A stretch of DNA of 64,000 bases from contig JAVKHP010000001.1 of the NCBI GenBank assembly GCA_031459855.1, positions 292,059 through 356,058 on the forward strand. The letters run 5' to 3'. Made by a program: the position numbers and the translations under genes. This DNA comes from Armatimonadota bacterium (lineage in GTDB: Bacteria; Sysuimicrobiota; Sysuimicrobiia; Sysuimicrobiales; Humicultoraceae). Positions 34,891-52,213 of this stretch are shown piece by piece (position 1 is the stretch's first letter; each line of letters starts with the position of its first letter). The notes under the pieces were generated by a model. It was not told the origin of the DNA. It did no database searches and saw only the letters and a list, made by a program, of their open reading frames with translations.

Positions 34891-34908
34891 CTATACGCAC
34901 TATACGCA
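34891..34908 (-). promoter_or_regulatory. Duplicated TATAG element, putative -10
   Basis: The 9-base unit CTATACGCA is repeated in tandem. On the minus strand this gives two TGCGTATAG boxes, one reading TATAGT (5 of 6 to the -10 consensus) about 22 bases before the solute-binding start. It may be an internal promoter raising receptor expression. No clear -35 was found. Confidence 0.35.
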
Positions 34909-34930
34909 CTCCAGGGTACACCCCCCGGGC

Positions 34931-35101: not shown

Positions 35102-36555
35102 CAGTAGACCACTCCCGTCCAGAAGTCACGCGGCAGCCGGAGCAGCGGCCCCACGCCGCTGCGCGCAATGGCCGCCCGCGCTTCCTCCGCCGCCGCTGCC
35201 ATCACCTCCATCTCGTCTACCAGCACCGCGCGCCCGTCGCGCACCACCACCTGACCATCTACCAGTACGGTCTCCACATCGTGTCCGCAGGCTTTCTCCA
35301 CCAGGCGGTGCTCGATCAAATAGGCCGGCACCAGGTGGGGTCGCTGCAGGTTCACCAGCACCACGTCGGCGCGCTTGCCGGGTTCCAGGGACCCCAGCTC
35401 ACGGTCGACGCCCATTGCCCGCGCAGCCTCGATGGTGATCATGCGCAGCGCCCGTCCGGGTGGGAGGACATAGGGGTTGGCGAAGTGGACGCGCTGGAGC
35501 GTCATGGCCATGCGCATGTCCTTGAACAGATCAAAGGTGGTGTCGGCGGTTCCATCGCTGCCGATGGCCACGGTGACCCCGCGCGCAAGCATCTCCACCA
35601 CGGGGACCCTGGCTTTGAACTGATAGATCCGCCGTGACGTAGGACAGTGCGACACCTTCGTGCCGGTGGCAGCCAGGATCTCGATCTCCCGAGCGCTGAC
35701 ACCTGTACAGTGCGCCAGCAAGACGTCGGGGCCGAGGATGCCGGTCTGCTCGTGCACCCACTGAATTGCCCCGCCGTAGGAGTGCGTGTGGATGCCCACA
35801 CGATACAGGTCAGCCAGCTCGCGCATGACCGTCGCCTGCCGGCGCGCCACGGGCAGGTCGGCCGGGTCGAACATGGGGTCGTAGGGAGACGGCGCCAAGA
35901 AGCGCGAGGCGCTCACCCAGACCGTCACGCGACCGCCGGCACCACCGTGCCATGTGCGGATCACCGCTTCCGTGGTCGCGACGCAGTCCTCAAACGACAC
36001 CCGGACGTCCGTCTTCACGCCCTCGGTCCAGTGGGAGAACGTCTTGGGCCAGGGCGGCCGCGGCGGTCCCACGCCAACGGCCGCCCGACCACCTACGGCC
36101 ACCGCACCGCGGCAGAACGCGTCAGCGTAGCGGGGATCGTCGGCGCGTGGAGCGGAACCCAGCATGGCCATGCCATACGTCGTGCCGAACTTCAGCCGCT
36201 CCAGCGTGGCCAACATCCCATCGGCGTGCCAAAATGCCGGCGTGGTGCCCCGGAAGTAGATGTGGTCCATCAGGCGCCGCCAGGCAGCGGGCGGAAGGTG
36301 TTCGCCGATGTGTTTGACGAGCGAGTGCCCCGCGTGTCCATGGGTATCGATCAACCCTGGAAGCACAGCGCGCCCCCGCGCGTCGAGCACGTCGCGCGGC
36401 TGGTACCGCGCCCGAAGCTCGGAGGCCGGCCCGACGGCCACGATGCGGCCTTCGGCGATGGCAACCGCGCCATCGGGGTAGACAGTCGAGGCAGTGTCCA
36501 TGGTGAGGACATAGCCACCGTCGATCAGGAGGTCCACGGTTGCTCGTTCAGTCAT
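35101..36555 (-). CDS. TRZ/ATZ-family amidohydrolase
   Basis: A 484-residue metal-dependent hydrolase with N-terminal composite beta domain and TIM barrel. Visible ligands are in LPGLIDTHGHAGHSL (His72, His74), GIHTHSYGGAIQWVHE, VLLAHCTGVSAREIE, KVSHCPTSRRIY and VAIGSDGTADTTFDLF, ending in the usual GSLEPGKRADVVLVNL. It is related to atrazine/melamine/8-oxoguanine-type hydrolases but differs clearly from the second amidohydrolase of the same operon, so two successive hydrolyses are likely. ATG 36555 lies 98 bases after the cyclase gene. The substrate is unknown. Confidence 0.92.
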   Translation of the reverse strand: MTERATVDLLIDGGYVLTMDTASTVYPDGAVAIAEGRIVAVGPASELRARYQPRDVLDARGRAVLPGLIDTHGHAGHSLVKHIGEHLPPAAWRRLMDHIYFRGTTPAFWHADGMLATLERLKFGTTYGMAMLGSAPRADDPRYADAFCRGAVAVGGRAAVGVGPPRPPWPKTFSHWTEGVKTDVRVSFEDCVATTEAVIRTWHGGAGGRVTVWVSASRFLAPSPYDPMFDPADLPVARRQATVMRELADLYRVGIHTHSYGGAIQWVHEQTGILGPDVLLAHCTGVSAREIEILAATGTKVSHCPTSRRIYQFKARVPVVEMLARGVTVAIGSDGTADTTFDLFKDMRMAMTLQRVHFANPYVLPPGRALRMITIEAARAMGVDRELGSLEPGKRADVVLVNLQRPHLVPAYLIEHRLVEKACGHDVETVLVDGQVVVRDGRAVLVDEMEVMAAAAEEARAAIARSGVGPLLRLPRDFWTGVVY

Positions 36556-36653
36556 GCGGATCCCATCGGTGCATCAGCTCGGCTCCGAACTCCCGGCGCA
36601 GACCGAGGACATCACCAGCCATCGACGGCGGGCGCATCCTGGGTTCCGAGCGC

Positions 36654-37616
36654 CTAGCGCCCCCTCCTCCCCGCCCGCCGCTGCCCCGGCCGCCCCTCCG
36701 GGGGCCGCCGGGCGCGGGCCGGGCGTGCCTGCGGTGCCGGCGCTGCGGCGGCCGGGACGGCGGGCGGCGCAGCCGCGGCTGCGCCGTCGGCCTCCACGAA
36801 CGCCACGAACCGGCAGAGCGCCGCCTCCCCACCCTTGAACCGGAACGGGAAGCACCCCACCCATACCCGTTGGTTCAGGATCTGGTCGATCTCCCCACCG
36901 ACGTTCTCGACGTGGAAGACACCCTTGGGGAACAGCAGCGTGTGCGTGGCCTGGTAGTCCTTGGGCCAGGGGAACGCCTTGTCGATGGCCATGCCGATCT
37001 TCTGCTCGACCTCGGGGATCAGGTCGCGGCGAGCGTCGCGCACCTTGGTGTTGAAGGGATGGTCGGTGGAGATGGCGTCGATGGCCATCCACCGGATGCC
37101 GCGGTCGAGCACCCACTGGCAGAACTCCGCCCGCGGTCCCGGGTGCCGCAGGAACGCCCGCGGCAGGTCGGGGCGCGCGTCGGGATGGTGGCGCCGGGTG
37201 GTCGGCGACCAGTCCTCGTTGTAGTAGGCGTGGTACCCGGTGTGGATCACCAGGATGTCACCGCGCTCGATGCGGATGTTGTACTTCTGCTCCCAGGCCT
37301 CGAAGTGCTCGGGGCCGTAGATGTCGTAGTCCCCGATCCCGAACTGTTGCAGGTCGACCACGCACGCCGGCCCCACCAGGTGCTCGATGGGAATGCCCGC
37401 GACGTCGGGCCCCGGGTCGTAGAAGTGGAGCGGCGCGTCGAGGTGCGTGGCGATGTGGTTGGTGGTGCTGAGGTGCTGGGCGTTGACGCCCTCGAAGGCG
37501 ATCTTCTTGACCCAGGTGACCTTGGGGCCCTCGTAGTACGCAAAGGGCGGCGAGTCCACGCTGAAGTTCTGCGAGAGGTCGAGTACTCGTACCCGCGAGA
37601 GATCCACCGATCTCAT
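36654..37616 (-). CDS. Cyclase-family metal hydrolase (kynurenine formamidase-like)
   Basis: A 320-residue protein of the Cyclase/KynB/isatin hydrolase superfamily, manganese or zinc enzymes that open amide rings or cleave formamides. The metal motif reads NHIATHLDAPLHFYDPG near residue 53 (the usual HxGTHxDxPxH with the Gly changed to Ala), and GDILVIHTGYHAYYNEDW and WMAIDAISTDHPFN follow. A Pro/Ala/Arg-rich tail of about 45 residues extends past the domain. It is first in the operon with two amidohydrolases and an importer, consistent with ring opening of the imported compound; that step is inferred. Confidence 0.9.
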   Translation of the reverse strand: MRSVDLSRVRVLDLSQNFSVDSPPFAYYEGPKVTWVKKIAFEGVNAQHLSTTNHIATHLDAPLHFYDPGPDVAGIPIEHLVGPACVVDLQQFGIGDYDIYGPEHFEAWEQKYNIRIERGDILVIHTGYHAYYNEDWSPTTRRHHPDARPDLPRAFLRHPGPRAEFCQWVLDRGIRWMAIDAISTDHPFNTKVRDARRDLIPEVEQKIGMAIDKAFPWPKDYQATHTLLFPKGVFHVENVGGEIDQILNQRVWVGCFPFRFKGGEAALCRFVAFVEADGAAAAAPPAVPAAAAPAPQARPARARRPPEGRPGQRRAGRRGR

Positions 37617-38179: not shown

Positions 38180-39166
38180 TCAGGAAGACGCGACAGGCAC
38201 CCGCAACGAGCGCGATGACTGCGTCCGGCGCAATTTAGCGCGACGATGCGCTTCGCGCGAGTGCTGGAACTTCATTATCGTGTAGGTCTCGCGAACGCTG
38301 TTGAGAAACGCCAAGGCGACGGAGGTCAACGGCTGGTGGCGCCGGTGTACGACGTCGAGGCTGCCGCCGGGCAGGACGACATCCTCCACCGTGATGGCCA
38401 CCAACTTCCGCCGTCGCAGTTCCTCGGCTATGGAAAGATAGGGCAGAACAGCCAGTCCCATTCCATACTCGGTGATGCGTATAGCCAGTTCCGTCGTTTC
38501 TACCTCCAACGCGATGTTGGGCACAACGCCTGCTCGGCGAAACAGGCGTTGCGTAAGCGTCCACTCATCGGATCCGCGGTCGACGAAAATGAATGGGCGA
38601 TCGGCGATCTCCGCCCAACGCACCGGTCGCCTGGGCGTAATGGGCGCCCCGGGACGCCCCACGAGCACGAGCGGGTCATCGGCAAGGCTAATGGTTTCCA
38701 GGTCCGGATGGTGGAGCGATCGAGCGATCCCGATCTCCACGTCGCCAGCCAGCAACGTCTCCGCGACGAACTTGGTGGAACCGGGACGAACGCTTACAGC
38801 CGTCTCGGGATGCTGGCCACGGAATCGCCAGAGCGCCTGAGGTAATAGATAGGTGCACGCGGCGAACACAGCCGCGACATGAAGCGAGGCGCTGCCACTA
38901 CTGGAGCACCTGACCCGAGCCGCCAAGCGCGCCAGGGCTGCCGTGTGGAGCAGGTGTTCGGCATGGGGCCGGAACTGTCTTCCGGCCTCGGTGAGGGTCA
39001 CGCCCTCGCGCCGATCGCGCTCAAAAAGATGCGTCCCCAGAGAGCGCTCAAGCGCCTTGATCCTGGCACTTACCGCAGGCTGCGAGAGGTTAAGAGACTC
39101 CGCCGCTCGTCGAAAGCTTCCGAACGTGGCGACCGCTAGAAAGGCCTCTACCTGAGAAATCTCCAC
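38180..39166 (-). CDS. LysR-family transcriptional regulator
   Basis: A 328-residue regulator read divergently from the amide-transport operon. Residues 1-62 are the LysR helix-turn-helix: ISQVEAFLAVATFGSFRRAA, LNLSQPAVSARIKALERSLG, LFERDRREGVTLTEAG. A periplasmic-binding-like co-inducer domain follows (VSVRPGSTKFVAETLLAGDV, GMGLAVLPYLSIAEEL). GTG 39166 has GGGAGCGGGG upstream; an ATG at 39190 is possible. Cytoplasmic, probably activating the facing operon in response to its substrate or product. Codon use is visibly lower in GC than the genes to its left. Confidence 0.92.
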   Translation of the reverse strand: MEISQVEAFLAVATFGSFRRAAESLNLSQPAVSARIKALERSLGTHLFERDRREGVTLTEAGRQFRPHAEHLLHTAALARLAARVRCSSSGSASLHVAAVFAACTYLLPQALWRFRGQHPETAVSVRPGSTKFVAETLLAGDVEIGIARSLHHPDLETISLADDPLVLVGRPGAPITPRRPVRWAEIADRPFIFVDRGSDEWTLTQRLFRRAGVVPNIALEVETTELAIRITEYGMGLAVLPYLSIAEELRRRKLVAITVEDVVLPGGSLDVVHRRHQPLTSVALAFLNSVRETYTIMKFQHSREAHRRAKLRRTQSSRSLRVPVASS

Positions 39167-39301
39167 CCCCGCTCCCTCGCTTCTCGGCATCGGCGCTGAC
39201 CTACATGCGCCGGGGAGGCTTCGCGGCAGGGCGCAAGGAATCCTGTAGCACAGGTTTTCAGGCGATAAACAGAATCTTCTTGGCGTCACGCTGCATTTGG
39301 A

Positions 39302-39325
39302 GGTACAGTACCAAAGGTACAGCAC
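39302..39325. promoter_or_regulatory. Putative LysR-regulator binding region
   Basis: In the divergent gap a perfect GGTAC-A-GTACC inverted repeat (39302-39312) is followed after three bases by a second GGTACAG. Upstream TTGGCG and TACAGT, 18 bases apart, could be the -35 and -10 of the rightward operon. No classic T-N11-A box was proven. Confidence 0.4.
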
Positions 39326-39375
39326 AGTGGCGTAGATGCATGTCGATTCACACTGCGTGAGGAGAGCCAGGACCC

Positions 39376-40575
39376 ATGGGGCGGCGATGTCGCCAGCACG
39401 CGAGCGCGAGAGACCGGGAGGGGAGTCGGCGCGAGGAGCCACCGATCCGCATAGGGGTCATCTCGCCCCTTACCGGGGCCTGGACAGCATATGGGCGCGC
39501 CCACTTCTCAGGTTTCGAACTCGCAGTCGACGAAATCAACAGGGCGGGCGGAGTCTTGGGGCGCCGCTTGCAGATCGTTGTTGCAGATTCCCAGACCAAT
39601 CCCCGTGTCGCGGCCGAGGAGGCCCATCGCCTCATCCGCCACGAGCAGGTCAGCCTGCTGGCCGGGACGTTCAGCAGCGCTGAACGTAATGCCGTAGGCC
39701 CGGTCGTGGCTGCCGCGAACTGTCTGCTCCTCTATCCGACGTTCTACGAAGGCCAGGATCCTGCGGATTACCCAGGGGTGTGCAACCAGAACATCTTCAT
39801 GTTCGGCTTGGAACCAACCCAGCAAGTATGGCCTCACGTGGAGTACATGCTCCGCACACACGGGCGCCGCTTCTTCCTGATCGGTTCGGACTACGTCTGG
39901 CCCCGGGGCGCCAACCGCTTGGCCAAGCAACGGATCCGAGAAGCAGGCGGCGAGATCGTGGGCGAGACTTACCTGGCGTTGGGCACCCGTCGGTACGAGG
40001 ATGCGCTGGAGCAGATTCGCGCTGCCAGGCCAGACGTCATCTTCAGCAGCGTAGCTGCTTACGATAGCGTGGAGTTTCGTCGGCAACTGCACGCAGCGGG
40101 TATGCGGCGTGATATGGTGCTCTGGAGCGTTGACGACGAGGAGATCGTCACCACCCGTGTCGGTGCCGAAGCGTCGGCAGGAGACTACGCGAGCTTCGAC
40201 TACTTCATGGCATTGCACCATCCGAACAACCATGGGTTCCTCGCGAGGTTGCGGAGGAAGTTCGGTCGCGATGCAATGACGAACACGGTCGGGGTCGCCA
40301 TGTACAATGCCGCGCACATGGTCGTGCAGGCGATCGCCCACGCGGGCACCCTGGAGACTGGGGCGGTGAGGGAGGCGCTCTCCCATCTGCGCTTCGACGG
40401 TGCTCCACAGGGAACGGTACGCATGCGCCCGACCGACCACCAGGCAATCCTCCCTTCTCACCTGCTGCGCGTCCGCGCGGGCTGGACCGGCGGACATGAC
40501 ATGTTTGAACCCGTGCAGTCGTTCGAGAGCGTTGAGCCGTCGCCAGCCCTTTCAGGAGTGGCCACGCGAGTGTAG
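39376..40575 (+). CDS. AmiC-like amide-binding protein without signal peptide
   Basis: A 399-residue type I periplasmic-binding-fold protein. It resembles AmiC, the cytoplasmic amide sensor of Pseudomonas, and urea/amide receptors: PIRIGVISPLTGAWTAYGRA, NCLLLYPTFYEGQDPADYPG, FFLIGSDYVWPRGANRL, ARPDVIFSSVAAYDSVEFRR and DGAPQGTVRMRPTDHQAI. The N-terminus (residues 1-22) is polar and charged, and an in-frame stop lies just before the ATG, so no signal peptide can be added. It therefore most likely stays in the cytoplasm as a ligand sensor. It is first in the operon, beside a LysR regulator; no AmiR partner is in the window. Confidence 0.85.
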   Translation: MGRRCRQHASARDREGSRREEPPIRIGVISPLTGAWTAYGRAHFSGFELAVDEINRAGGVLGRRLQIVVADSQTNPRVAAEEAHRLIRHEQVSLLAGTFSSAERNAVGPVVAAANCLLLYPTFYEGQDPADYPGVCNQNIFMFGLEPTQQVWPHVEYMLRTHGRRFFLIGSDYVWPRGANRLAKQRIREAGGEIVGETYLALGTRRYEDALEQIRAARPDVIFSSVAAYDSVEFRRQLHAAGMRRDMVLWSVDDEEIVTTRVGAEASAGDYASFDYFMALHHPNNHGFLARLRRKFGRDAMTNTVGVAMYNAAHMVVQAIAHAGTLETGAVREALSHLRFDGAPQGTVRMRPTDHQAILPSHLLRVRAGWTGGHDMFEPVQSFESVEPSPALSGVATRV

Positions 40576-40646
40576 CCCCGCCGCACTGCCAGTCGTCATG
40601 CTCCTCGCACGTCAAAAACCTTGATCACCCTATAACAAGAATCCGT

Positions 40647-40677
40647 TTGACGCGGTTCACGCGTCCCATCGTATTCT
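40647..40677 (+). promoter_or_regulatory. Possible internal promoter ahead of the permease-ATPase gene
   Basis: TTGACG (5 of 6) and TATTCT (4 of 6) are 19 bases apart in an AT-richer gap of 136 bases between the sensor gene and the transport genes. Long spacing makes this tentative. Confidence 0.3.
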
Positions 40678-40711
40678 CAAATCTAGACCGGTCCAACGGT
40701 TATGTTATGGC

Positions 40712-42640
40712 GTGGCCATGGGCAGATGGCTGGGGTTTCGAACCAGTGCCACCGTTGAACACGTGACGAGAGACCCGGCATACCGACAGGTCGGGAACCG
40801 TACCGGACCGCTCGGGCGCATCGAGACGGCCCAGCGCTGGCCGCGGTTGCTGGCAGGAAGTGCCCTGTTGGCAGTGTGGGGACTAGGCCCCCTGGTACTG
40901 GGCACGTTTGCGCTCCGGATCCTCTCCCAGGCGTTTCTATTCGCGATAGCGGCACTGACGGTCGACCTGCTGTGGGGGTACACCGGCGTCCTGACGTTCG
41001 GCCAGTCGGCGTTCTTCGGGATCGGTGTGTACGGCCTCGGGCTGACGCTCGCCTACCACGCTAGCGGCCTTGCGGGCACTGTGGCAGCGATGCTTGGGGC
41101 GATGGCCGTTGCAGCGGCGGTCGGCGCGCTGATTGGGTGGCTGGCGTTCTGGGATGGGGCATCACCGATCTACCCGGGCGTGGTGACGCTGGCCCTGCCG
41201 ATTGTCTTCACGCAGATCATCCTGAGCGGCGGCTCATACACCGGTTCCAGCAGCGGCCTGCCTATCCCTGTGCCTCCGCTCTCGTTCGAGCAGTGGTACT
41301 GGCTGTCCGGCGGGACCCTGCTTGTCGTAGCCATTGCCGCCTACCGGTTCGTGACAAGTGATGCGGGGCGTATCCTCGTTGCGATCAGAGAGAACGAGGA
41401 GCGGTGTCGATACCTGGGGCTGCGACCATCGCGCTGGAAGATCGGCCTCATGACCGCGTGCAGCGCCCTGGCTGCACTGGCCGGTGCTCTGTACGTGCTC
41501 TTCGCCAGCGTGGCGGCGCCCCAGTATGGTGACTTCCTGTTCGGGACAGAACTGGTGGTGTGGACGGCGCTTGGAGGACGGGGGAGCTTGGTCGGCCCGA
41601 TCTTCGGTACCATCGGGATCAACTACGTGTCAGCCGTACTCGGTGGCAATTTGCCGTTCGTTTGGCTCCTCGCCATAGGCGTCGTCTTCGTGCTCGTGGT
41701 CGTCTACCTCCCGCACGGAATCGTCCCGCCCCTAATGAGAAGGCTCGGGACGGTCGGCCGCGGCGTCGAGGCACGGGTTACGCGACGTACGCAGCGCCCG
41801 GCAGCCGAGGACAGCCACGGCGCTGGCGCGATCGTCGCGTCGCCGGCACGGCGAGGTCCGGGCCCCGACGACAACGAACGGCGCGGGGACGAGCCACCTG
41901 CACTCGAGCTACGGGACGTGACAAAGTCATACGGTAGCCTTCCTGTGCTTCGCGGCATCACCCTCGCGGTGCGCAAAGGCGAAGTCGTGAGCATCGTTGG
42001 CCCCAACGGCGCCGGCAAGACTACGCTGCTACGCTGCATCAGCGACGGTCGCGAACGATCAGGAGGCGCCATCTTCATCAACGGACGGCGAACCGACGGG
42101 CTACCACCTCAAGCGTGTGTAGCGCTGGGATTGGGCCGCAAGTTCCAGACCCCCAATGTGTTCGAGGCACTCTCCGTCCTTGACTGCCTGCGCATCGCGC
42201 GGTCGTATCGGGTGGCTCCGTCGTTTTGGCGCCGCGCACCTACAGTGGAACTCCCACCGGTGGCGTTGCGCGTCGTGGAGGCCACAGGCCTGCTGTCCGT
42301 ACTCGATCGGGCGGCCGGCCAGCTGCCCCACGGTATGAAACAGGCGCTAGAGCTCGCGATGGTGCTCGCACTGGAACCCAATGTGTTGCTGCTGGATGAA
42401 CCCACGGCTGGGCTGACAGGGGGGGAACGCGCCGCGATCGGGTCCGTGCTCACCGAGCTGGCACACGACCACAGGCTCTCCGTGGTGTTGATCGAGCACG
42501 ACGTCGACTTCGTCCGCACCATCAGCACCCGGTTAGTTGTTCTCCACATGGGCCGGATCGTGCTGGACGGTCCGCCGGCGGACGTCGCAGAGTCCGACGT
42601 TGTCCGCGAGATCTACATCGGCGGAGGTGCTCGCCGATGA
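40712..42640 (+). CDS. Fused LivM/UrtC-type permease and LivG/UrtD-type ATPase
   Basis: One 642-residue chain joins two usually separate subunits of a urea/amide/branched-chain-type importer. Residues 1-350 are a LivM/UrtC permease (LWGYTGVLTFGQSAFFGIGV, VAIRENEERCRYLGLRPSRW, WTALGGRGSLVGPIFG). After a 45-residue charged linker, residues about 395-642 are an ABC ATPase with Walker A GPNGAGKTT at about 429, signature LPHGMKQALELAMVLAL and Walker B LLLDEPTAGLTGGE. The signature resembles UrtD. The stop overlaps the next ATPase (ATGA). Start is GTG 40712 or ATG 40718. The ligand is predicted to be an amide or urea-like compound. Confidence 0.92.
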   Translation: MAMGRWLGFRTSATVEHVTRDPAYRQVGNRTGPLGRIETAQRWPRLLAGSALLAVWGLGPLVLGTFALRILSQAFLFAIAALTVDLLWGYTGVLTFGQSAFFGIGVYGLGLTLAYHASGLAGTVAAMLGAMAVAAAVGALIGWLAFWDGASPIYPGVVTLALPIVFTQIILSGGSYTGSSSGLPIPVPPLSFEQWYWLSGGTLLVVAIAAYRFVTSDAGRILVAIRENEERCRYLGLRPSRWKIGLMTACSALAALAGALYVLFASVAAPQYGDFLFGTELVVWTALGGRGSLVGPIFGTIGINYVSAVLGGNLPFVWLLAIGVVFVLVVVYLPHGIVPPLMRRLGTVGRGVEARVTRRTQRPAAEDSHGAGAIVASPARRGPGPDDNERRGDEPPALELRDVTKSYGSLPVLRGITLAVRKGEVVSIVGPNGAGKTTLLRCISDGRERSGGAIFINGRRTDGLPPQACVALGLGRKFQTPNVFEALSVLDCLRIARSYRVAPSFWRRAPTVELPPVALRVVEATGLLSVLDRAAGQLPHGMKQALELAMVLALEPNVLLLDEPTAGLTGGERAAIGSVLTELAHDHRLSVVLIEHDVDFVRTISTRLVVLHMGRIVLDGPPADVAESDVVREIYIGGGARR

Positions 42641-43386
42641 CGGCCACTGGCCACGAGCGCGACGCGGCAGACCGATCGGCGCACACACCCGCAGTTCGCG
42701 TCGAGTCGCTGTGTGGAGGCTACGGCGAGTCCAACGTGATCCGCGACGTGACATTCCAGGTTCACCGAGGCGAGATCTTCGCGATTCTCGGCAAGAACGG
42801 CATGGGGAAGTCCACGCTGCTGAAGGCGATGATGGGCTTCCTCCCGCGGCGGCAAGGCTATGTCGAGCTCCTGGGAACCGACGTCACGCGCTGGCCTCCC
42901 TACCTGATCGCGCGACACGGCGTGGGGTACGTGCCGCAGGAGAAAGCCATCTTCCAGGACCTGTCTGTGGAGGAGAACCTTCGACTGGCGGCGGTCGGTC
43001 TCCGTCGTGTCAAAGAGCGTCTCGACTTGGTGTCACACTGGTTTCCCGCGGTGGCTCTTCGCCGGCGGCAGCGGGCTGGTACGCTGTCTGGCGGCGAGCA
43101 GAAGATGCTGCTGGTCGCGCGTGCGCTCCTGGCGGAGCCTCGGCTGCTCCTTGTTGACGAGATCAGCGAGGGATTGCAGCCCGCACTGATCGGTCGTCTC
43201 CAGGAGGTTCTTGCGGAGGAGCGGCAACGCGGCCGCCTGACGACCATCCTGGTGGAACAGAACGTACGTTTCGCACTGGCGCTGGCCGACAGATACGCGG
43301 TCCTCAAGCTGGGAACGATTGTCGACAGCGGGCCCGCCACGGCCGAGGCGCGTGCCCGCATCGAGCACCACTTGGCGGCCTTCTGA
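42637..43386 (+). CDS. LivF/UrtE-type ABC transporter ATPase
   Basis: A 249-residue second ATPase. The Walker A GKNGMGKST near residue 52 carries the NGMGK form seen in UrtE. Signature TLSGGEQKMLLVARALLAEP, Walker B LLLVDEISEGLQP and the switch region ILVEQNVRFALALADRYAVL are present. ATG overlaps the fused permease-ATPase stop by four bases. With the LivH-type permease and the receptor it completes the importer. Confidence 0.93.
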   Translation: MTATGHERDAADRSAHTPAVRVESLCGGYGESNVIRDVTFQVHRGEIFAILGKNGMGKSTLLKAMMGFLPRRQGYVELLGTDVTRWPPYLIARHGVGYVPQEKAIFQDLSVEENLRLAAVGLRRVKERLDLVSHWFPAVALRRRQRAGTLSGGEQKMLLVARALLAEPRLLLVDEISEGLQPALIGRLQEVLAEERQRGRLTTILVEQNVRFALALADRYAVLKLGTIVDSGPATAEARARIEHHLAAF

Positions 43387-43459
43387 ACGCGATGGGGGGT
43401 GAGAGCGGAGGTTACGTATGCATCGCCGACGGTCAACAACATGAAGGGGTGAGATCCAT

Positions 43460-44647
43460 ATGTACAGGCGGAGAGTGGCAAGATGGTGGACAGCGTCCGC
43501 AATGGCCAGCTTTCTGGCGGCCGGGGTGCTTGCCCTCGCGCTGCCCGGTAGGGCGCAACAGAAGCCGATTCTTATCGGGATTCCCGTGGGATTGAGTGGT
43601 GTGAACAGTGTGGTGGCACCCGCGGTGGTACAGTCCGCGGAGTTGGCCGTTGACGAGATCAATGCCCGCGGAGGCGTCCTTGGGCGTAGGGTCGAGCTGG
43701 CCGTGGCCGACGACGAAAGCGGTCCGGCTGGGGCGGTCAAGGCGTTCAACAGCCTAATCTACCAGCGCAAGGTTGACGTCATCATCACCATGGAAACGAG
43801 CGCGGCCCGCAACGCGGGCTACCCGATCGCGGAGCGGGCAAAAGTGCCCTACATCTACACGTCGTTCTACGAGGGACGCGCTTGTGGCAAATACCTGTTT
43901 GTGAACGCCTGGGTACCCGAGCAGGTCGTGCCACCCCTGATTCGATTCCTGACCGACGAGAAAAAGGTGAAGCGATGGTTCGCCGTGGGAAGCGACTACG
44001 CCTTCGGGCGAGGCATGATCGAGGCGGCGAAGGCTACCATCAAGCAGATGGGAGGCACGGTCCTCGGGGAGGAGTACCTCCCGCTGCAGGCCTCTGACTG
44101 GACGCCGATCATTAGCAAGATCCGGGCGGCGAATCCCGACGGCATCATCTACTCCACGTCAGGCGGCGGTCCCAACATCGACTTCATGAAGCAGTACAAG
44201 GCCGCCGGCCTGACCATGCCAGTGGGCAGCCTGAGCATCGATGAGCTGACCGCGCAGGCAGGCGGCGGCGCGGCGGCGGGCGTCTACTACACCGGGGACT
44301 ATTTCACCGGGATCGACACGCCGGAGAACAAAGCGTTTCTGGCGGCCATGAAGAAAAAGTTTGGAGCGAGCCTCAAGACGCCCAACTCCCTCTCCCAACA
44401 ACAGTACGATGGCGTGCATGCGTACGCGCTGGCCGTCCAGAAGGCCGGTTCCACCAACGCCGAAGCCGTGCTGAAAGTACTTCCCACCGTGGTCTTCAAA
44501 GGCCCACGAGGTCCGATCCAGATGAACAGGCAGCACCACGCACCACTGCCGATCTATTTGGCGCAGGTGCAAGCCGATGGCACTACCAAGGTGCTCAAGA
44601 GCTTCGGGTTGATCGACCCTGGGAACCAGTGCCCGAACCTGAAGTAG
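43460..44647 (+). CDS. Urea/amide-type solute-binding protein (exported)
   Basis: A 395-residue periplasmic receptor of the importer. A signal peptide spans about residues 1-32 (MASFLAAGVLALALPGRAQ) with no lipobox. The mature protein has PILIGIPVGLSGVNSVVAPA, AELAVDEINARGGVLGRRVE, KVPYIYTSFYEGRACGKYLF, WFAVGSDYAFGRGMIEAAK and GPRGPIQMNRQHHAPLPIYL. It is a relative of UrtA and of the sensor encoded four kilobases upstream, but with export signal. ATG 43460 follows GGGGTGAGATCCAT. Confidence 0.92.
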   Translation: MYRRRVARWWTASAMASFLAAGVLALALPGRAQQKPILIGIPVGLSGVNSVVAPAVVQSAELAVDEINARGGVLGRRVELAVADDESGPAGAVKAFNSLIYQRKVDVIITMETSAARNAGYPIAERAKVPYIYTSFYEGRACGKYLFVNAWVPEQVVPPLIRFLTDEKKVKRWFAVGSDYAFGRGMIEAAKATIKQMGGTVLGEEYLPLQASDWTPIISKIRAANPDGIIYSTSGGGPNIDFMKQYKAAGLTMPVGSLSIDELTAQAGGGAAAGVYYTGDYFTGIDTPENKAFLAAMKKKFGASLKTPNSLSQQQYDGVHAYALAVQKAGSTNAEAVLKVLPTVVFKGPRGPIQMNRQHHAPLPIYLAQVQADGTTKVLKSFGLIDPGNQCPNLK

Positions 44648-44674
44648 CACCGCGTCGTTGACAGGAGGCCGGGC

Positions 44675-45505
44675 GTGGTTCTGACGCAGTTGCTGGACGT
44701 ACTGAGTACCGCAGGGATTCTGTACGTTGTGGCGCTCGGCCTCCTGCTGGTCTTTGGCGTGCTCAAGATCATCAACCTCGCCCACGGGGCGTTCCTGGCA
44801 ACTGGCGCGTACACTGCTGTGGTCGTCACGCGCCTGGGATGGAATCCGTGGACTGTTGTGCTCCTGGCACCAGCGGTCGGCGTGATTCTGGCCGCGTTGA
44901 TCGAGTGGCGTGTACTCCGGCCAATCTACGAGCGACCGTTGGACACCATCTTGGCCACGTGGGGGCTGAATCTCATCGTCACCCAGGCGATCACCCTGTA
45001 CTTCGGGCGCGAGATCCAGTTCGCCAAGAGCGCCATCGAGCAGGCGGTCACCGTGGGCGGCACGACCTATTCTCAGTACCGGCTCGTACTGCTGGGGATC
45101 TCGGTCATCATCGGTGGGCTCGTGTGGGCCTTGTTCCATCGAACCAACGTCGGCTTGGTGGCACGCGCGGTTGTCATGAACGAGGAACTGGCGCAGGGTC
45201 TGGGCATCGATACTCGTCGGACGCGATTTGCGACGTTCTGCGTTGGCGCTGCACTAGCGAGCCTTGCCGGAGCCCTCATCACCCCCTTGATCAGCGTGCA
45301 CCCCTATCTCGGACTCCCCTGGCTGGTGAACTCGTTCATGTTGGTGCTCGTTGCTGGGGTCTCCCTCGGGAACTTGGCCCTGGCGGCGTTGACGCTGGGC
45401 GGTGCGCAGGTACTGGTCAGCTCGTACGGGAATCCCGTGCTCGGGAGCCTGACGATCGTTATCCTGGCCGTGATCATTCTTCGCCTGCGGAACGTCACGC
45501 TTTGA
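44675..45505 (+). CDS. LivH/UrtB-type ABC transporter permease
   Basis: The second membrane subunit, 276 residues with about eight hydrophobic helices. LivH signatures are GLLLVFGVLKIINLAHGAFL near residue 22 and ARAVVMNEELAQGLGIDTRR near 165, then GAALASLAGALITPLI. GTG 44675 follows AGGAGG. It lies between the receptor and the AtzG-like gene. Only one LivH and one fused LivM copy exist, giving a heterodimeric channel. Confidence 0.92.
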   Translation: MVLTQLLDVLSTAGILYVVALGLLLVFGVLKIINLAHGAFLATGAYTAVVVTRLGWNPWTVVLLAPAVGVILAALIEWRVLRPIYERPLDTILATWGLNLIVTQAITLYFGREIQFAKSAIEQAVTVGGTTYSQYRLVLLGISVIIGGLVWALFHRTNVGLVARAVVMNEELAQGLGIDTRRTRFATFCVGAALASLAGALITPLISVHPYLGLPWLVNSFMLVLVAGVSLGNLALAALTLGGAQVLVSSYGNPVLGSLTIVILAVIILRLRNVTL

Positions 45506-45520
45506 GCCTGAGGAGGACTT

Positions 45521-45700
45521 ATGGAAGAAGTGCTTGCTACGCTTGCAGCCATGGCCGGCTATCCCTTGACGAAAGAAGACCTAAAACGGGTAGGGGCGTA
45601 CCTCGCGGACTACTGGCGTGAACTCGAAGCCCTGCGGGCTGTCGTGCTCCCGGAAGACATCGAGCCCGTTGTCCAGTTTCGCCTCGAGCGGTGGAGCTGA
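45521..45700 (+). CDS. AtzG-like (DUF4089) small amidase subunit
   Basis: A 59-residue gene with AGGAGG 4 bases before its ATG. The protein resembles DUF4089/AtzG, the small GatC-like subunit that wraps around and stabilises the amidase AtzE (1-carboxybiuret hydrolase): an N-terminal helix pair (LATLAAMAGYPLTKEDLKRV, YLADYWRELEALRAVVL) and the terminal motif LPEDIEPVVQFRLERWS. The amidase gene starts directly behind it (GTG 45702), the same arrangement as atzG-atzE. Family identity is by motif and context only, since the protein is short. Confidence 0.8.
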   Translation: MEEVLATLAAMAGYPLTKEDLKRVGAYLADYWRELEALRAVVLPEDIEPVVQFRLERWS

Positions 45701-45701
45701 C

Positions 45702-47105
45702 GTGCGCGCGTGGGACTGGCCCTGGCAGTCTCTCGCTGACGCAGCACGGGCGGTGGAGACCCACCAGGTCTCGCCGGTTGAGCTGGTCCGGGCGTGTCTG
45801 GATCGCATTGAGCGCGTGGATCCTCGGATCAGGGCGTTCAGCACGGTGGATGCGGACGCTGCCCTGGATGCTGCGCGGGCGGCGGAGGCCGAGATCTCGC
45901 GCGGTCGGTACCGCGGCCCATTGCACGGCATTCCGGTCGCCCTGAAAGACAACTATGACACACGGGCCCTGCCGACGACCAATGGGTCGCAGGTATTCGC
46001 CGATAGACGTCCAGATCGGGATGCGGCAGTGTGGGACCGTCTCCGGAGCGCCGGCGCGGTACTCCTCGGGAAGCTCAGCATGCACGAGATCGCGTGGGGC
46101 GTCGACGTGCCTCCCACGCGGAACCCATGGGACCTGCGTCGCACCCCAGGTCTGTCGAGCGCTGGTGCCGGCGCGGCGGTCGCGGCCGGCCTGTGCTTCG
46201 CGGCTCTTGGCACCGATACCGGCGGTTCGATTCGGATTCCCGCGGCGTGTTGCGGCGTCGTCGGTCTCAAACCCACCTATGGACGGGTGAGCCGGTTCGG
46301 CATTCTGCCGCACTCCTGGTCCCTTGACCACGCGGGTCCCCTGACGCGTCGTGCCGAGGACGCCGCCATCGTGCTGAGCCTCATCGCAGGGAGAGATGCC
46401 AGGGACCCGAGCACGGCCGACGTCGACGTCCCAGACTACTCCGCCAGGCTTCGCGGGGGCATCGAGGGGCTTCGGCTTGGCGTCCCGACCACCCATTTCT
46501 TCGAGCGAATCGAGCCCGGTGTCGAGGCCACTGTCCGAACCGCCATGCGAGAGCTCGAGCGCTTGGGTGCGCACCTGCAGTCAGTCTCCATTCCCCATAT
46601 CCGGTACGGTCTCGCCGCCATCCTGACCATCGAACTGGCGTCCGCGACGGCGTGGCACGACCGGTACCTGCGTGACCCCATCTTGCGCACGCGGTTTACA
46701 CCGGAGGTCCGACTCCTCTTGGATGCCGGCAAGTTCGTCTTCGCCAGCGACTTCGTGAAGGCTCAGCAGCTTCGGGGCATGCTGCTGCAAGAGCTGCGCG
46801 CCGCGTTTCAGGAGGTCGACGCGCTGGTGACGCCGACGATGCCCCTGGTCGCGTGGCCCGTCGATCGGAACACTGTACGGCTAGGCGACCAGGAGGAGCA
46901 CGTGTTGCACGCGTGCTGGCGGTACACGTACGTCTTCAACCTGACCGGGCTGCCGGCGGTCACCGTCCCGTGCGGCTTCGTAGACGGGATGCCCGTCGGC
47001 CTCCAGCTTGTGGGCCGCCCCTTCGACGAGCAAACGATCCTGCGCATTGCCCACGCATACGAGGAGGCCACGCCATGGCACCGTTCAGCGCCATCTCTGA
47101 CGTAG
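45702..47105 (+). CDS. AtzE/GatA-type amidase-signature hydrolase
   Basis: A 467-residue amidase of the amidase-signature family, hydrolysing an amide or carbamoyl bond in the cytoplasm. The Ser-cisSer-Lys triad is visible: Lys in IPVALKDNYD near residue 84, the paired serines in TPGLSSAGAGAAVAAG near 150, and the nucleophile in GTDTGGSIRIPAACCGVVGL near 175. The usual GGSSGGS is here GLSSAGA. GTG 45702 follows GGAG at 6 bases and the AtzG-like stop. Together they form a likely heteromeric enzyme related to 1-carboxybiuret hydrolase, though the true substrate is unknown. Confidence 0.92.
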   Translation: MRAWDWPWQSLADAARAVETHQVSPVELVRACLDRIERVDPRIRAFSTVDADAALDAARAAEAEISRGRYRGPLHGIPVALKDNYDTRALPTTNGSQVFADRRPDRDAAVWDRLRSAGAVLLGKLSMHEIAWGVDVPPTRNPWDLRRTPGLSSAGAGAAVAAGLCFAALGTDTGGSIRIPAACCGVVGLKPTYGRVSRFGILPHSWSLDHAGPLTRRAEDAAIVLSLIAGRDARDPSTADVDVPDYSARLRGGIEGLRLGVPTTHFFERIEPGVEATVRTAMRELERLGAHLQSVSIPHIRYGLAAILTIELASATAWHDRYLRDPILRTRFTPEVRLLLDAGKFVFASDFVKAQQLRGMLLQELRAAFQEVDALVTPTMPLVAWPVDRNTVRLGDQEEHVLHACWRYTYVFNLTGLPAVTVPCGFVDGMPVGLQLVGRPFDEQTILRIAHAYEEATPWHRSAPSLT

Positions 47106-47202
47106 TGCCGGGCCCAGACCCGTGCCAGGCAGCGGGCGCGCCATCGGGTAACATGCCCCCTCAGTGAGCAGGCGGCCAAAGATCCGCCGGGAGGTGCACG
47201 CC

Positions 47203-48096
47203 ATGGGAGCCGATGAAGATCGAACGCGGGGGGCGGAAAGCCTCGTTGCCGTGGCATGCGTCCAATTCGAGCCGCAGGTAGGGTACAAGGGAGAAAATGT
47301 GGCTCGAAGCGTCGCGTTGCTGCACCAGGCGGCTGATCGCGGGGCTCGGTTCTGCGTCCTCCCGGAACTGTGCAATTCCGGCTACGTGTTCAACACGCGC
47401 GCGGAAGCCTATGCGGCCGCAGAGGAGGTACCCGGAGGCCCCACGGTGCGCGCCTGGGCCGAGGTGGCGCGTGCGCGCGATCTGTTCGTGGCGGCAGGCA
47501 TCGCCGAGCGGGCGGGCGACAACCTCTACAACACCGCGGTGCTGGTGGGGCCGGAAGGCTACATCGGAAAGTACCGCAAGATGCACCTGTGGTACGAAGA
47601 GAAACTCTTTTTCGAGCCCGGAGACATGGGGTTTCCCGTATACCGGACCCCGGTCGGCATCGTCGGCATGGCCATCTGCTATGACATCTGGTTTCCCGAG
47701 ACGATGAGGTTGCTGGCCGTCCAAGGGGCAGACCTCGTCTGCGTACCGACCAACTGGGTACCGATTCCCGGCCAGGCGGACAGTGAGTGGCCCATGGCGG
47801 TCTATCTCTGCATGACCGGGGCGCACTGCAACGGCATCTTTGTCGCAGCGGCTGACCGCGTGGGCGTGGAACGTGGGCAGCCGTTCCTGGGGCGCAGCAT
47901 CCTCGTCAGCCCCTCGGGCTGGCCCATTGCAGGTCCCGCCAGCGCAGAGCGAGAGGAAATTCTCATCGGAAGCTGCAATCTCGTAGAAGCGCGACGGATG
48001 AAGACGTGGAGCGACCTCAACGTCATCCTCCGCGACCGTCGTACGGACTACTACGACGTGACGCTGGGCGCCGACGCACGCCCGCACCCGTTCTGA
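47203..48096 (+). CDS. Nitrilase-superfamily hydrolase (N-carbamoyl or amide type)
   Basis: A 297-residue carbon-nitrogen hydrolase. The Glu-Lys-Cys triad is complete: Glu55 in FCVLPELCNSGY, Lys126 in GKYRKMHLWYEE and Cys159 in GMAICYDIWFPE. The pattern is closest to beta-ureidopropionase, N-carbamoyl-amino-acid hydrolase and aliphatic amidase branches. ATG 47203 has GGGAGG at 8 bases; an upstream GTG 47164 is less likely. Its stop shares one base with the next gene (TGATG). It likely removes ammonia or a carbamoyl group from the amidase product; substrate unknown. Confidence 0.92.
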   Translation: MGADEDRTRGAESLVAVACVQFEPQVGYKGENVARSVALLHQAADRGARFCVLPELCNSGYVFNTRAEAYAAAEEVPGGPTVRAWAEVARARDLFVAAGIAERAGDNLYNTAVLVGPEGYIGKYRKMHLWYEEKLFFEPGDMGFPVYRTPVGIVGMAICYDIWFPETMRLLAVQGADLVCVPTNWVPIPGQADSEWPMAVYLCMTGAHCNGIFVAAADRVGVERGQPFLGRSILVSPSGWPIAGPASAEREEILIGSCNLVEARRMKTWSDLNVILRDRRTDYYDVTLGADARPHPF

Positions 48097-48479
48097 TGGC
48101 CGCCGCGGAGGCCGGTCCGATCCTGCTTCGATCCACGCTGCCAGCGGTCGTCGCAGCGAACTGCTACCAGTACTTTTGCGTGCTAGGCAGTGCGACGGCA
48201 CAAACACCTGTTCGTATTCGGCGCGTAACCGTGCGATCGCAGGGGCCGCACTGCTGGGTGACCAGCGTTCCGCTGGCCAACGCTGTGGATCTTCAGGTGT
48301 CTGCCGATGAGTGGTGCGTCCTGACCGCAGGCGTGCTGCGAGTGTCGGGCGCTGCGCCGCCGGGCGAGTACGTGCTGGAACTGCGGGTTGACCTGGAAGC
48401 CACCGGCGAGGATGCGGTGCGCACCGTTCAAGAGGTTCTCCGGGTGTCGGTACGCGGTCACGGCGGTTGTTGCAGCTGA
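48096..48479 (+). CDS. Unknown 127-residue protein in the amide operon
   Basis: I do not recognise this protein. It is coupled to the nitrilase gene by a TGATG junction and lies 60 bases before the M20 hydrolase gene. There is no signal peptide or membrane segment. The sequence is rich in predicted beta strands (RIRRVTVRSQGPHCWVTSVP, EYVLELRVDLEATGEDAVRT) and cysteines (VAANCYQYFCVL, DEWCVLTAG and a terminal GGCCS). It may be a beta-sandwich subunit or metal-binding accessory of the neighbouring hydrolases. Coding status is supported by junction, codon use and position. Confidence 0.72.
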   Translation: MAAAEAGPILLRSTLPAVVAANCYQYFCVLGSATAQTPVRIRRVTVRSQGPHCWVTSVPLANAVDLQVSADEWCVLTAGVLRVSGAAPPGEYVLELRVDLEATGEDAVRTVQEVLRVSVRGHGGCCS

Positions 48480-48539
48480 CGTGCACAGGCGACAGACACG
48501 GCCTCGCAAGCATTCTGAGAACCAGGAGGGAGGCGCACG

Positions 48540-49766
48540 GTGATGGCCCACGTGCTGGGCGACCGGCTGCGTGACACCATCGATCGCTGGGCCACGATCG
48601 GAGGCACCGAACGTGGTGGGGTGACCCGGCTGGCACTTACCGATGAAGATAAGGCGGCCAGAGATCTACTGGCCATGTGGATGCACGACCTCGGGTTGCG
48701 GGTTGCTGTAGACGACGTCGGCAACATGTACGGCTGGCGCACGGGAGAAGATGGCGCGGCACCACCTGTGGCTTTTGGCTCTCACCTTGACACAGTCATT
48801 CGGGGCGGGCGCTTCGACGGCACCCTGGGCGTTGCGGCGGCGTTAGAGGTAATGCGCGCCCTCGCCGACGCTGGGCAGCGCACTCGACGGCCGCTGGTAT
48901 TGGTGAACTGGACAAACGAAGAAGGAGTCCGATTCTCTCCAGCGATGCTCGGAAGTGGGGTCGTAGCGGGCAGATTCCCTCGCGCCTACGCGGATGCGCG
49001 CCTGGCGCCAGATGGCCGAACCTTTGGCGCGGAGCTTGAGCGTATCGGGTATCGGGGGGACGAGGCCGCGCGGTTACGTCAGATAGCGGCGTACGTGGAA
49101 CTACACATCGAGCAAGGGCCGGTATTGGAGGAGCTCGGGGCTGACATCGGCGTGGTCGAAGGCATCCAGGGGATCTCCTGGTCTACCTGTCGGATCACCG
49201 GACAGGCGGGCCATGCGGGGACAACGCCCATGGCCCGGCGGCGAGACGCGCTCGTCGCCGCGGCCGAGGCGGTGCTGGCAGCGAACCAGCTCCCCGTTCA
49301 GATCAGGAACGACCTGGTCGCCACGGTCGGCAGCCTGCGTGTATCGCCCAACGCGATCAACGTCATCCCGGAAAGCGTGGAATTTACCCTGGACCTCCGG
49401 GCGCCACGGGAGCAGACGCTGACAGACGCCAAAGCCCGTTTTGCACAGCACCTGGCGGACCTGCGGTCGCGAGGCTATCACCCAGTATGGGAGGAGTTTT
49501 GGGCCAGCGAGCCAACCGCGTTCGCTCCTACGATCATATCGGTGATCGAGGGGACGGCCCGAGCGCGAGGCTTGCGCACGCACCGGATGCTGTCCGGCGC
49601 CGGACACGACGCCAAGTACGCGGCCACCCTGGGGCCGACTGGTATGATCTTTGTTCCCTGTCGGGACGGTCGTAGTCACGCCGAGGACGAGGACGTTCCA
49701 TGGGAGTCTGCTGTCGCCGGGGCCCAGGTACTGTTGGACGTTGTGGTCGCGCTGGCGGCGCAGTGA
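48540..49766 (+). CDS. M20-family N-carbamoyl-L-amino-acid hydrolase/allantoate amidohydrolase
   Basis: A 408-residue di-metal amidohydrolase that removes carbamoyl or ureido groups, releasing CO2 and ammonia. Signatures are GSHLDTVIRGGRFDGTLGV (His82, Asp84, Asp93), NWTNEEGVRF (Glu127/128), YVELHIEQGPVLEELG near residue 190, GQAGHAGTTPM, LSGAGHDAKYAA and CRDGRSHAEDED. These fit the HyuC/AllC group. GTG 48540 and ATG 48543 are both possible after AGGAGGGAGG. It is the last gene of the lower-GC operon, so it probably performs the final decarbamoylation. Confidence 0.92.
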   Translation: MMAHVLGDRLRDTIDRWATIGGTERGGVTRLALTDEDKAARDLLAMWMHDLGLRVAVDDVGNMYGWRTGEDGAAPPVAFGSHLDTVIRGGRFDGTLGVAAALEVMRALADAGQRTRRPLVLVNWTNEEGVRFSPAMLGSGVVAGRFPRAYADARLAPDGRTFGAELERIGYRGDEAARLRQIAAYVELHIEQGPVLEELGADIGVVEGIQGISWSTCRITGQAGHAGTTPMARRRDALVAAAEAVLAANQLPVQIRNDLVATVGSLRVSPNAINVIPESVEFTLDLRAPREQTLTDAKARFAQHLADLRSRGYHPVWEEFWASEPTAFAPTIISVIEGTARARGLRTHRMLSGAGHDAKYAATLGPTGMIFVPCRDGRSHAEDEDVPWESAVAGAQVLLDVVVALAAQ

Positions 49767-49905: not shown

Positions 49906-51189
49906 GTGATCGAGGTGCCGCCGGTGGACCTGATCGTCCGGCATGCGACGACCCTCGACGGGGAGGCCGTCGACGTCGGCATCGTGGGCGACCGGATCGC
50001 CCGCATCGCCCCCGCGCTACCCGACCGCGCACCGGTCGAGCTCGACGCCGGCGGCGGCCTGGTGACGCCCGCGCTGGTGGAGATCCACATCCACCTGGAC
50101 GCGGTGCTCACCGTGGGGGAGCCGCGCTACAACCAGAGCGGCTCGCTGTTCGAGGGCATCGAGATCTGGAGCGAGCGGGTCAAGACGCTGTCGGCCGAGG
50201 ACGTCCGGCGGCGCGCCGACCGCGCGCTCCGCTGGCTGCTGGCCCACGGGGTGACCTACGTCCGGACCCACGTGGACGTCTGCGACCCGCGCCTGGTGGC
50301 GCTGCAGGCGCTCCTGGAGCTGCGGGAGGCGTGGCGCGACGTGGTGACGATCCAGCTGGTGGCCTTCCCCCAGCAGGGGATCTACGCGTTCCCCGACGGC
50401 GAGGCGCTGCTGGCCCGGGCGCTGGCGCTGGGCGCCGACGTCGTGGGCGGCATCCCCCACTACGAGTGGACCCGCGAGGACGGCGAGCGCGACGTGAAGA
50501 CCGCCCTGCGCCTGGCCGCCGCCCACGGGCGGCGGGCCGACCTCCACTGCGACGAGACCGACGACGACCAGAGCCGGTTCCTCGAGCTGGTGGCGGCCGA
50601 GACGATCCGGCTGGGGCTGCAGGGCCGGGTGACGGCCAGCCACACCACGGCCATGCACTCCTACAACAACGCCTACGCCTACCGGTTGATGCGGTGGATG
50701 CGGGCGGCCGGCGTCCACATCGTCACCAACCCGCTGGACAACGCGGTGCTGCAGGGGCGGTTCGACGGCTACCCGGTCCGCCGGGGGTACACCCGCGTCA
50801 AGGAGCTGCTGGCCAACGGCATCAACGTCGCCCTGGGCCACGACTCCATCATGGACCCCTGGTACCCGCTGGGCGTGGGCGACCCGATCCAGGCGTGCTT
50901 CGTGATGGTGCACTACGGGCACATGTCGGGCTACCAGGAGTTCCGCACCCTGCTGGAGATGGTCACCACCCGCGCGGCCGCGTGCTTCGGCCTGACCGAC
51001 TACGGCCTGGCCGAGGGAAAACGCGCCGACCTGGTGGTCTTCGCCGCGCCCACGCCCATGGACGTGATCCGCACCCTGAGCCCGCGCCTGGCGGTCATCT
51101 CCGGTGGCCGGCTGGTGGCCCGCACCACGCCGGCACAGACCGAGGTGCTGCTCGGCGGCCGGGCCGAGCCGGTGAGCCTCCTCCAATGA
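49906..51189 (+). CDS. codA: Cytosine deaminase-type amidohydrolase
   Basis: A 427-residue metal hydrolase of the CodA group, converting cytosine (or a related pyrimidine, isoguanine or creatinine) to the keto form plus ammonia. CodA signatures are abundant: LVEIHIHLD (His61, His63), VAFPQQGIYAFPD, DLHCDETDDDQSRFLE, TASHTTAMHSYNNAYAYRL and LGHDSIMDPWYPLGVGDP. GC content returns to the genome level here, so it starts a new unit. It is read with a taurine-type ABC importer that probably brings in its substrate. Confidence 0.93.
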   Translation: MIEVPPVDLIVRHATTLDGEAVDVGIVGDRIARIAPALPDRAPVELDAGGGLVTPALVEIHIHLDAVLTVGEPRYNQSGSLFEGIEIWSERVKTLSAEDVRRRADRALRWLLAHGVTYVRTHVDVCDPRLVALQALLELREAWRDVVTIQLVAFPQQGIYAFPDGEALLARALALGADVVGGIPHYEWTREDGERDVKTALRLAAAHGRRADLHCDETDDDQSRFLELVAAETIRLGLQGRVTASHTTAMHSYNNAYAYRLMRWMRAAGVHIVTNPLDNAVLQGRFDGYPVRRGYTRVKELLANGINVALGHDSIMDPWYPLGVGDPIQACFVMVHYGHMSGYQEFRTLLEMVTTRAAACFGLTDYGLAEGKRADLVVFAAPTPMDVIRTLSPRLAVISGGRLVARTTPAQTEVLLGGRAEPVSLLQ

Positions 51190-51214
51190 GCGCGCCCGCG
51201 GCGAGGGGCCACCC

Positions 51215-52066
51215 GTGAGCCAGGACGCCACCCCGGCCCCCACGGCCCTGGCTGGCCGCCCGGCGGGCGGGCCGGGCCGGCCGCGCGCTGCCGCCCGCCC
51301 GCGCCTGCCCCTGGGCGAGCTGCGCTCGTGGACCGTGTTCGCTATCATCGTCACCGGTGCGTGGGAGGTCGCCTCCCGCGTCTACGCGCAACCCTACCTG
51401 CTGCCCGCGCCCTCGGCGATCGCCCGCGAGCTGCGCGACAACGCCGAGCTGGTCTTCGGCTACACGTGGATCACGACGCAGGAAGTGGTAGCAGGCTTCC
51501 TCATCGGCGCGGCGGCGGCGCTGCTGGGGGCCATGGTGTTCATCTGGCTGCCCCGGGGGCTCGAGCAGTTCCTGTTCCGCATCGTGGTGACGCTGAACAG
51601 CACCCCGTTCGTGGCCCTGGCGTCGCTGGCGGTGGTCTGGTTCGGGCTGGGCCTGCGCAGCAAGGTGATCATCGCAGCCCTCTACACCTTCTTCGCGGTG
51701 CTCTACACCACCCACAAGGAGTTCGTCTCGGTCGAGGTCATCCGCGAGCAGCTCCTGGACGTCTACAACGCCACCTGGTGGCAGCGCATCGTGCTGTTGA
51801 AGATCCCCTCGGCGCTGCCCATCATCTTCGTGAGCCTCAAGGGCGGCGTCATGGCCGCGGTGAACGGCGCCATCGTCGGCGAGCTCTACGGGGCGTCCGA
51901 GGGCCTGGGGTACATGATCCTCGACTCCCGCTACGTGGCCAACACCACCCGGGTGTTCCTGGCCGCGGTCTTCTGTACCGTGATCGGGTGGCTGCTGCTC
52001 GGCGTCGTGACCGTGGCCGAGCGGCTGGCGCTGCCCTGGCACGTGAGCATGGCAGAACGCCGCTAG
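51215..52066 (+). CDS. Nitrate/taurine-type ABC transporter permease
   Basis: A 283-residue inner-membrane importer subunit with about six hydrophobic segments and the SsuC signature (NSTPFVALASLAVVWFGLGL and LDVYNATWWQRIVLLKIPSA). GTG 51215 starts 26 bases after the cytosine deaminase. A long polar N-terminus of about 35 residues precedes the first helix. With the following receptor and ATPase it forms a complete importer next to a pyrimidine deaminase. Confidence 0.92.
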   Translation: MSQDATPAPTALAGRPAGGPGRPRAAARPRLPLGELRSWTVFAIIVTGAWEVASRVYAQPYLLPAPSAIARELRDNAELVFGYTWITTQEVVAGFLIGAAAALLGAMVFIWLPRGLEQFLFRIVVTLNSTPFVALASLAVVWFGLGLRSKVIIAALYTFFAVLYTTHKEFVSVEVIREQLLDVYNATWWQRIVLLKIPSALPIIFVSLKGGVMAAVNGAIVGELYGASEGLGYMILDSRYVANTTRVFLAAVFCTVIGWLLLGVVTVAERLALPWHVSMAERR

Positions 52067-52213
52067 GGGGTGAGCAGGGCACCGACGGCCTGGCCCGCCG
52101 GGCATCGCACGACGCACGTGTCCTGTCCGCCGGCCCCAGCGGTGTCGCACAGCGTGCGGCCGCGGGGGTGGGCTCGGCGGAGACCGTGGATTTGCAACGA
52201 GGAGGAGGATGCG

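Follow-up and report, generated by a model that had tools for sequence, protein, structure and literature searches.

An apparently horizontally acquired operon, probably for scavenging amide nitrogen, in an Armatimonadota bacterium

The closest described counterparts of the gene block analyzed here are the Pseudomonas ami operon (amiE-amiB-amiC-amiR-amiS) and the acetamidase operon of a Klebsiella plasmid, which carries amiC, amiR and an ABC transporter (PMC13209695). These operons share with the block a nitrilase-superfamily amidase, an AmiC-type sensor and amide uptake, and several relatives of the block likewise combine an AmiC-type protein with AmiR. By contrast, the block itself has a LysR-family regulator and no AmiR, it carries an extra amidase, an M20 hydrolase and an orphan protein, and its nitrilase reaches 46.7 bits on the aliphatic amidase model, whose cut-off is 427. 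The UrtABCDE and fmdDEF-type importers match its transporter in family and gene set, but in the block UrtC and UrtD are fused and three key urea contacts of the exported binding protein, SBP2, are replaced. In the atzG-atzE (1-carboxybiuret hydrolase) and hpxXY-type systems, as here, a small GatC-like protein precedes an amidase-signature hydrolase near transporter and LysR genes, whereas the amidase of the block falls well short of the AtzE cut-off and belongs to a different clade; AtzH/HpxZ and AtzD were not found within the block. As in hyuC/M20 systems the M20 hydrolase passes TIGR01879, but the block holds no hydantoinase or dihydropyrimidinase. An earlier note on this DNA knew of no described operon with this gene set, and we likewise found no description in the literature searched, from which most subscription papers were missing.

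The block lies in a 64,000-nucleotide stretch of DNA (the window) from a 3.19-Mb genome. Every gene listed in the earlier note was found where it had been placed, and the gene calls were backed by Pfam and NCBIfam profile matches (Table 1). The genes do not all run in one direction, as had been proposed, because the LysR gene is on the minus strand and diverges from the plus-strand run. The tight junctions that the note reported were confirmed from UrtCD through M20: UrtCD and UrtE overlap by 4 bases, gaps of 15 bases and 1 base separate UrtB from the 59-aa ORF and the latter from the amidase, and the nitrilase stop overlaps the orphan start (TGATG). The spacing between SBP1 and UrtCD is 136 bases. 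Some starts can be placed in more than one way: 39190 and 39166 are both possible for LysR, whose longest ORF reaches 39442; about 45,702 is likelier for the amidase than the ORF start at 45,618; and the true start of the nitrilase is possibly downstream of 47164. All scores against the NCBIfam UrtA-E models were below their cut-offs (for example, UrtA 225 versus 493). In the LysR-SBP1 intergenic region, positions 39300-39330 contain the inverted repeat GGTACAGTACC followed by one more GGTACAG, a candidate regulator site.

Table 1. Predicted features of the gene block (positions in the window)
Feature	Position	Strand	Supporting match
LysR-family regulator	38180..39166	-	Pfam HTH_1 (2.3e-22) and LysR_substrate
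SBP1, UrtA/AmiC-type binding protein without signal peptide	39376..40575	+	Peripla_BP_5, 1e-82
UrtCD fusion, permease and ATPase of urea/amide-type importer	40712..42640	+	BPD_transp_2 and ABC_tran, single 642-aa frame
UrtE-like ATPase	42637..43386	+	TIGR03410, 225 bits (cut-off 286, not reached)
SBP2, exported binding protein with altered acidic ligand pocket	43460..44647	+	Peripla_BP_6, 2e-89
UrtB-like permease	44675..45505	+	BPD_transp_2, 1e-33; TIGR03409, 178 bits (cut-off 250)
GatC/AtzG-like small amidase partner, 59 aa	45521..45700	+	named via relatives
Amidase-signature hydrolase, separate clade	45702..47105	+	Pfam Amidase, 8e-118
Nitrilase-family hydrolase	47164..48096	+	CN_hydrolase, 4e-52
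Orphan protein, 127 aa	48096..48479	+	no family match
M20-family N-carbamoyl-amino-acid hydrolase	48540..49766	+	TIGR01879, 387 bits (cut-off 204)

The visibly lower G+C content noticed earlier was borne out, at about 0.63-0.66 inside the block versus about 0.69-0.75 around it, and was accompanied by a break in GC3, which was 0.67-0.80 for all genes from LysR to M20, with most flanking genes at 0.82-0.98 (left side 0.82-0.93, right side 0.94-0.98; two NMT1 rows that were cut out of frame are left out). In two genomes of the same family (L071 and L072) the cyclase and CodA-like deaminase genes on either side of the block are direct neighbours, with about 118 and 171 bases between them. This arrangement and the GC3 break show that the block of about 12 kb was inserted between the cyclase and cytosine-deaminase genes, apparently by horizontal acquisition. 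Other genomes of the host family gave only nitrilase matches of about 45% identity, or none. No tRNA or RNA families were detected in the window, so no tRNA-borne integration was seen and the ends of the block are unmarked. The cyclase/CodA gap is thus empty in two genomes, is occupied in a third of the same family (L073) by a frame read as Kelch-repeat-like, and holds the operon in the window; it is possibly a site of repeated gene gain. The flanks (29732-37616, minus strand, and 49906-54251, plus strand) contain amidohydrolase, cyclase and NMT1-type ABC transporter genes, with the CodA-like cytosine deaminase scoring above the PRK07572 cut-off, and form a second nitrogen-compound region, older than the insert.

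The exact gene set of the window occurred once, but a core made up of the nitrilase and SBP2-UrtB-UrtCD-UrtE was present in about 18 other loci, drawn from several phyla and from plasmids and including a genome of the same order and alpha-, beta- and gammaproteobacteria; most of the UrtCD fusion could be aligned in 18 loci. Given this recurrence, the clustering is far above chance, and the scattering that would have undone the earlier note's proposal was not found. The same-order genome (G038; loci L017 and L030), deposited as Bacillota MAG Centralia_MAG_45, has the order SBP1-UrtCD-UrtE-SBP2-UrtB-small protein-amidase-nitrilase, as in the window, with 43-73% identity between the proteins. In Bradyrhizobium centrolobii (L020), UrtCD-UrtE-SBP2-UrtB, at 64-80% identity, diverges from the nitrilase, and in Kiloniellaceae (L021-L023) SBP2-UrtB-UrtCD-UrtE is followed, after a DUF1028 protein in two of three cases, by the small protein, the amidase and the nitrilase. 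On plasmids of Paracoccus, Ancylobacter and Enterobacter, urease genes come after nitrilase-SBP2-UrtB-UrtCD-UrtE, and in Rhizobium sp. Kim5 a different amidase takes the post-UrtE place. The second hydrolase is therefore variably a GatC-like protein with an amidase, a urease, another amidase, a DUF1028 protein or none: minimal relatives have an AmiC-type protein, the nitrilase and the importer only, and in L079 and L080 no second hydrolase was recognisable beside the core nitrilase. An AmiC-type protein occurs in many proteobacterial versions; in several an AmiR/ANTAR regulator comes next, an arrangement shared with known amide operons. The Bacilli loci pair this nitrilase with a sodium:solute symporter instead, and two of them also have a DUF1028 protein.

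Within a drawn sample of 398 Pseudomonadota genomes, a close nitrilase was found in six and was beside the importer in all six. Searching 297 genomes of the Bradyrhizobium family with the amidase gave one locus (L046/L081), where the full core is present; a search of 385 Alphaproteobacteria with SBP2, limited to the best four candidates per genome, returned only the known Kiloniellaceae genome, which says little on rarity. In trees, SBP2 grouped with its L020 and L017 counterparts (100/100) and the nitrilase with those of L017 and L018 (98/97); because the two group differently, the parts of the operon may have been reassorted. Across the loci, the conserved unit is a nitrilase and importer core with interchangeable second enzymes. 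DUF1028 (PF06267) genes lie in the nitrilase's cluster at L021:7608-8351, L022:7609-8352, L026:10948-11646 and L028:10899-11600, assigned by Pfam for the L021 and L028 proteins and by eye for the other two; this co-clustering in both Alphaproteobacteria and Bacilli suggests that the protein acts in the nitrilase's pathway. We found no papers on DUF1028 in the literature searched, which lacked most subscription papers. On Klebsiella and Shinella plasmids (L038 and L044), the nitrilase has as neighbours a glutamine-amidotransferase-like gene and an M24 peptidase/ABC unit but no Urt-type importer.

The urea contacts of Prochlorococcus UrtA (W120, S122, Y141, Q144, E146, Y190, N246 and S274) are reported to be strictly conserved in UrtA homologues (PMC10392092). 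In an alignment of 17 SBP2 rows, W120 was replaced by Glu in 16, Q144 by Phe in all and N246, whose column can shift by one, by Gly in all. The window SBP2 keeps every other listed contact, and S122, Y141, E146 and Y190 are retained in nearly all orthologues. With these three contacts missing from SBP2, import of urea itself is unlikely, and the urea side of the urea/amide-type importer described in the earlier note is not supported. The replacements also bear on a plainer account, in which SBP2 takes up urea and formamide or acetamide, a urease or amidase is used as available, and nothing goes beyond the ami and fmd operons. The kinship of the transporter to UrtABCDE and AmiC, the urease genes that come next on several plasmids and the published ami and fmd clusters that include urt genes (PMC13209695) would all fit such generic uptake; however, the pocket is altered in essentially all SBP2 orthologues, the Urt scores stay below the family cut-offs and the host genome has no urease above cut-off, so that we consider this account unlikely. 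Unless such a host has some other route for urea, it could make no use of it, and nitrogen would be lost through any pathway that stopped there.

The pocket residues of SBP1 differ again (F, F, A/T and D). The protein is 68% identical to its L017 counterpart, which also starts without a signal peptide, and 63% identical to a relative in L019 that bears a Tat-like signal; in the window an in-frame stop lies six codons upstream and the N-terminus is not hydrophobic. Because both the window and L017 versions lack a signal peptide, SBP1 is likely a cytoplasmic sensor, as the earlier note held. The comparison with AmiC did not hold in its plain form: no AmiR/ANTAR gene was found beside SBP1 within the block, the pocket is unlike that of AmiR-paired AmiC-type proteins, and the L019 relative carries its export signal.

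Catalytic residues are intact in all three hydrolases: the Ser-cisSer-Lys triad of the amidase (motifs LKDN, LSSAG and GTDTGGS), the Glu-Lys-Cys triad of the nitrilase (LPELCNSGY, YRKMHLWYEE and ICYDIWFPE) and, by motif, the metal ligands of M20, which falls within the hydantoinase/carbamoylase family. The amidase was rejected both as AtzE (312 bits on TIGR02715, cut-off 426, versus 771 for the control AtzE of pADP-1) and as GatA (330 bits, cut-off 481), and nine cluster amidases formed a clade of their own (92/88) that excluded AtzE and the GatA-like protein of the host (L015). Thus, what had been called an AtzG/AtzE-like pair keeps its small GatC-like frame, 1 base before the amidase, but not its AtzE identity. 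The 59-aa protein has no meaningful Pfam match by itself; it is 43% identical to the L017 protein, itself a weak PF13318 (AtzG-like) match, and a profile of six small partner proteins weakly matched GatC in the PDB (3h0l_C, E=0.015). Most cluster amidases have a small GatC-like frame directly upstream.

No homologue of the orphan was found in plasmids or, beyond its own genome, in the phylum sample of 43 genomes, all from one order, and its AlphaFold2 single-sequence model (mean pLDDT 51) was too poor for a fold search. M20 relatives in core-carrying genomes are usually elsewhere, in most cases on other contigs, and in L047 near an ABC ATPase. This distribution would suit two unrelated units, namely an amide operon ending at the nitrilase and an orphan/M20 pair serving the neighbouring cytosine-deaminase/NMT1 transporter region. 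We hold that division to be very unlikely, since M20 and the orphan share the low GC3 (0.73 and 0.70, versus 0.98 for the next gene) and the tight junctions, and M20 directly follows the nitrilase in one Kiloniellaceae locus (L022), an exception among the relatives. M20 and the orphan are local additions to the core. The earlier note had further read the three hydrolases as successive steps of one pathway; as an obligatory sequence this is not supported, given the minimal relatives, whose only hydrolase is the nitrilase, the replacement of the amidase by urease in some loci, and the unlinked M20 and orphan in the nearest relative.

L017 encodes an isochorismatase-like enzyme between the amidase and the nitrilase, absent from the window, whose nearest PDB structure is N-carbamoylsarcosine amidohydrolase (7.6e-34); this enzyme and M20 may stand in for each other as N-carbamoyl or amic-acid hydrolases. 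The biuret hydrolase BiuH is isochorismatase-like, and the L017 enzyme scores 50 bits on its model (cut-off 370). A biuret-like ureide path, in which the nitrilase would deaminate biuret to allophanate, passed on to the GatC-like/amidase pair or decaying to urea in the urease variants, would account for the sharing of the post-UrtE place by urease and an AtzE/AtzF-related amidase and for the N-carbamoyl hydrolases (M20 and isochorismatase-like) that accompany the core; biuret and urea are dead ends in cyanuric acid catabolism (PMC6219798). We nonetheless regard it as improbable, because the known biuret hydrolases come from another family, the L017 enzyme falls far short of the BiuH cut-off and the minimal operons have no second enzyme at all.

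The sense-import-hydrolyse system for an amide or ureido compound proposed in the earlier note is thus well supported as an operon. We put at roughly 60% the probability that it is a horizontally acquired operon for scavenging nitrogen from a small amide-bearing compound; it is best read as a relative of the ami/fmd amide-scavenging operons, and we infer an amide, amic acid or ureido substrate. SBP2, UrtB, UrtCD and UrtE would bring the compound in, the nitrilase-family hydrolase would make the core cut with release of ammonia, the amidase and its GatC-like partner would cut a second amide in the window variant, and M20 would decarbamoylate any N-carbamoyl amino acid that is produced or taken in, with LysR and a probably cytoplasmic SBP1 as regulators. 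We found no enzyme or ligand in this family that had been assayed. The substrate may differ among relatives, given their widely differing linked enzymes, and co-transcription could also join genes whose functions are unrelated. More tentatively, the Glu/Phe/Gly pocket of SBP2 might mark an undescribed, horizontally mobile system that catabolizes a single unrecognised nitrogen compound, with the nitrilase making the first cut and urease, the GatC-like/amidase pair, DUF1028, isochorismatase-like or M20 proteins serving as interchangeable finishers.

While amide-scavenging operons are known as a kind, the window variant, the pocket signature and the spread of the system seem to be undescribed in the literature searched. 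The core allows many proteins that carry no more than a nitrilase-family, substrate-binding-protein or amidase label to be read as one system; plasmids of Rhizobium, Paracoccus and Enterobacter, among others, carry it. The SBP2 pocket signature cautions against annotation as a urea transporter and offers a direct binding test that could name the compound.
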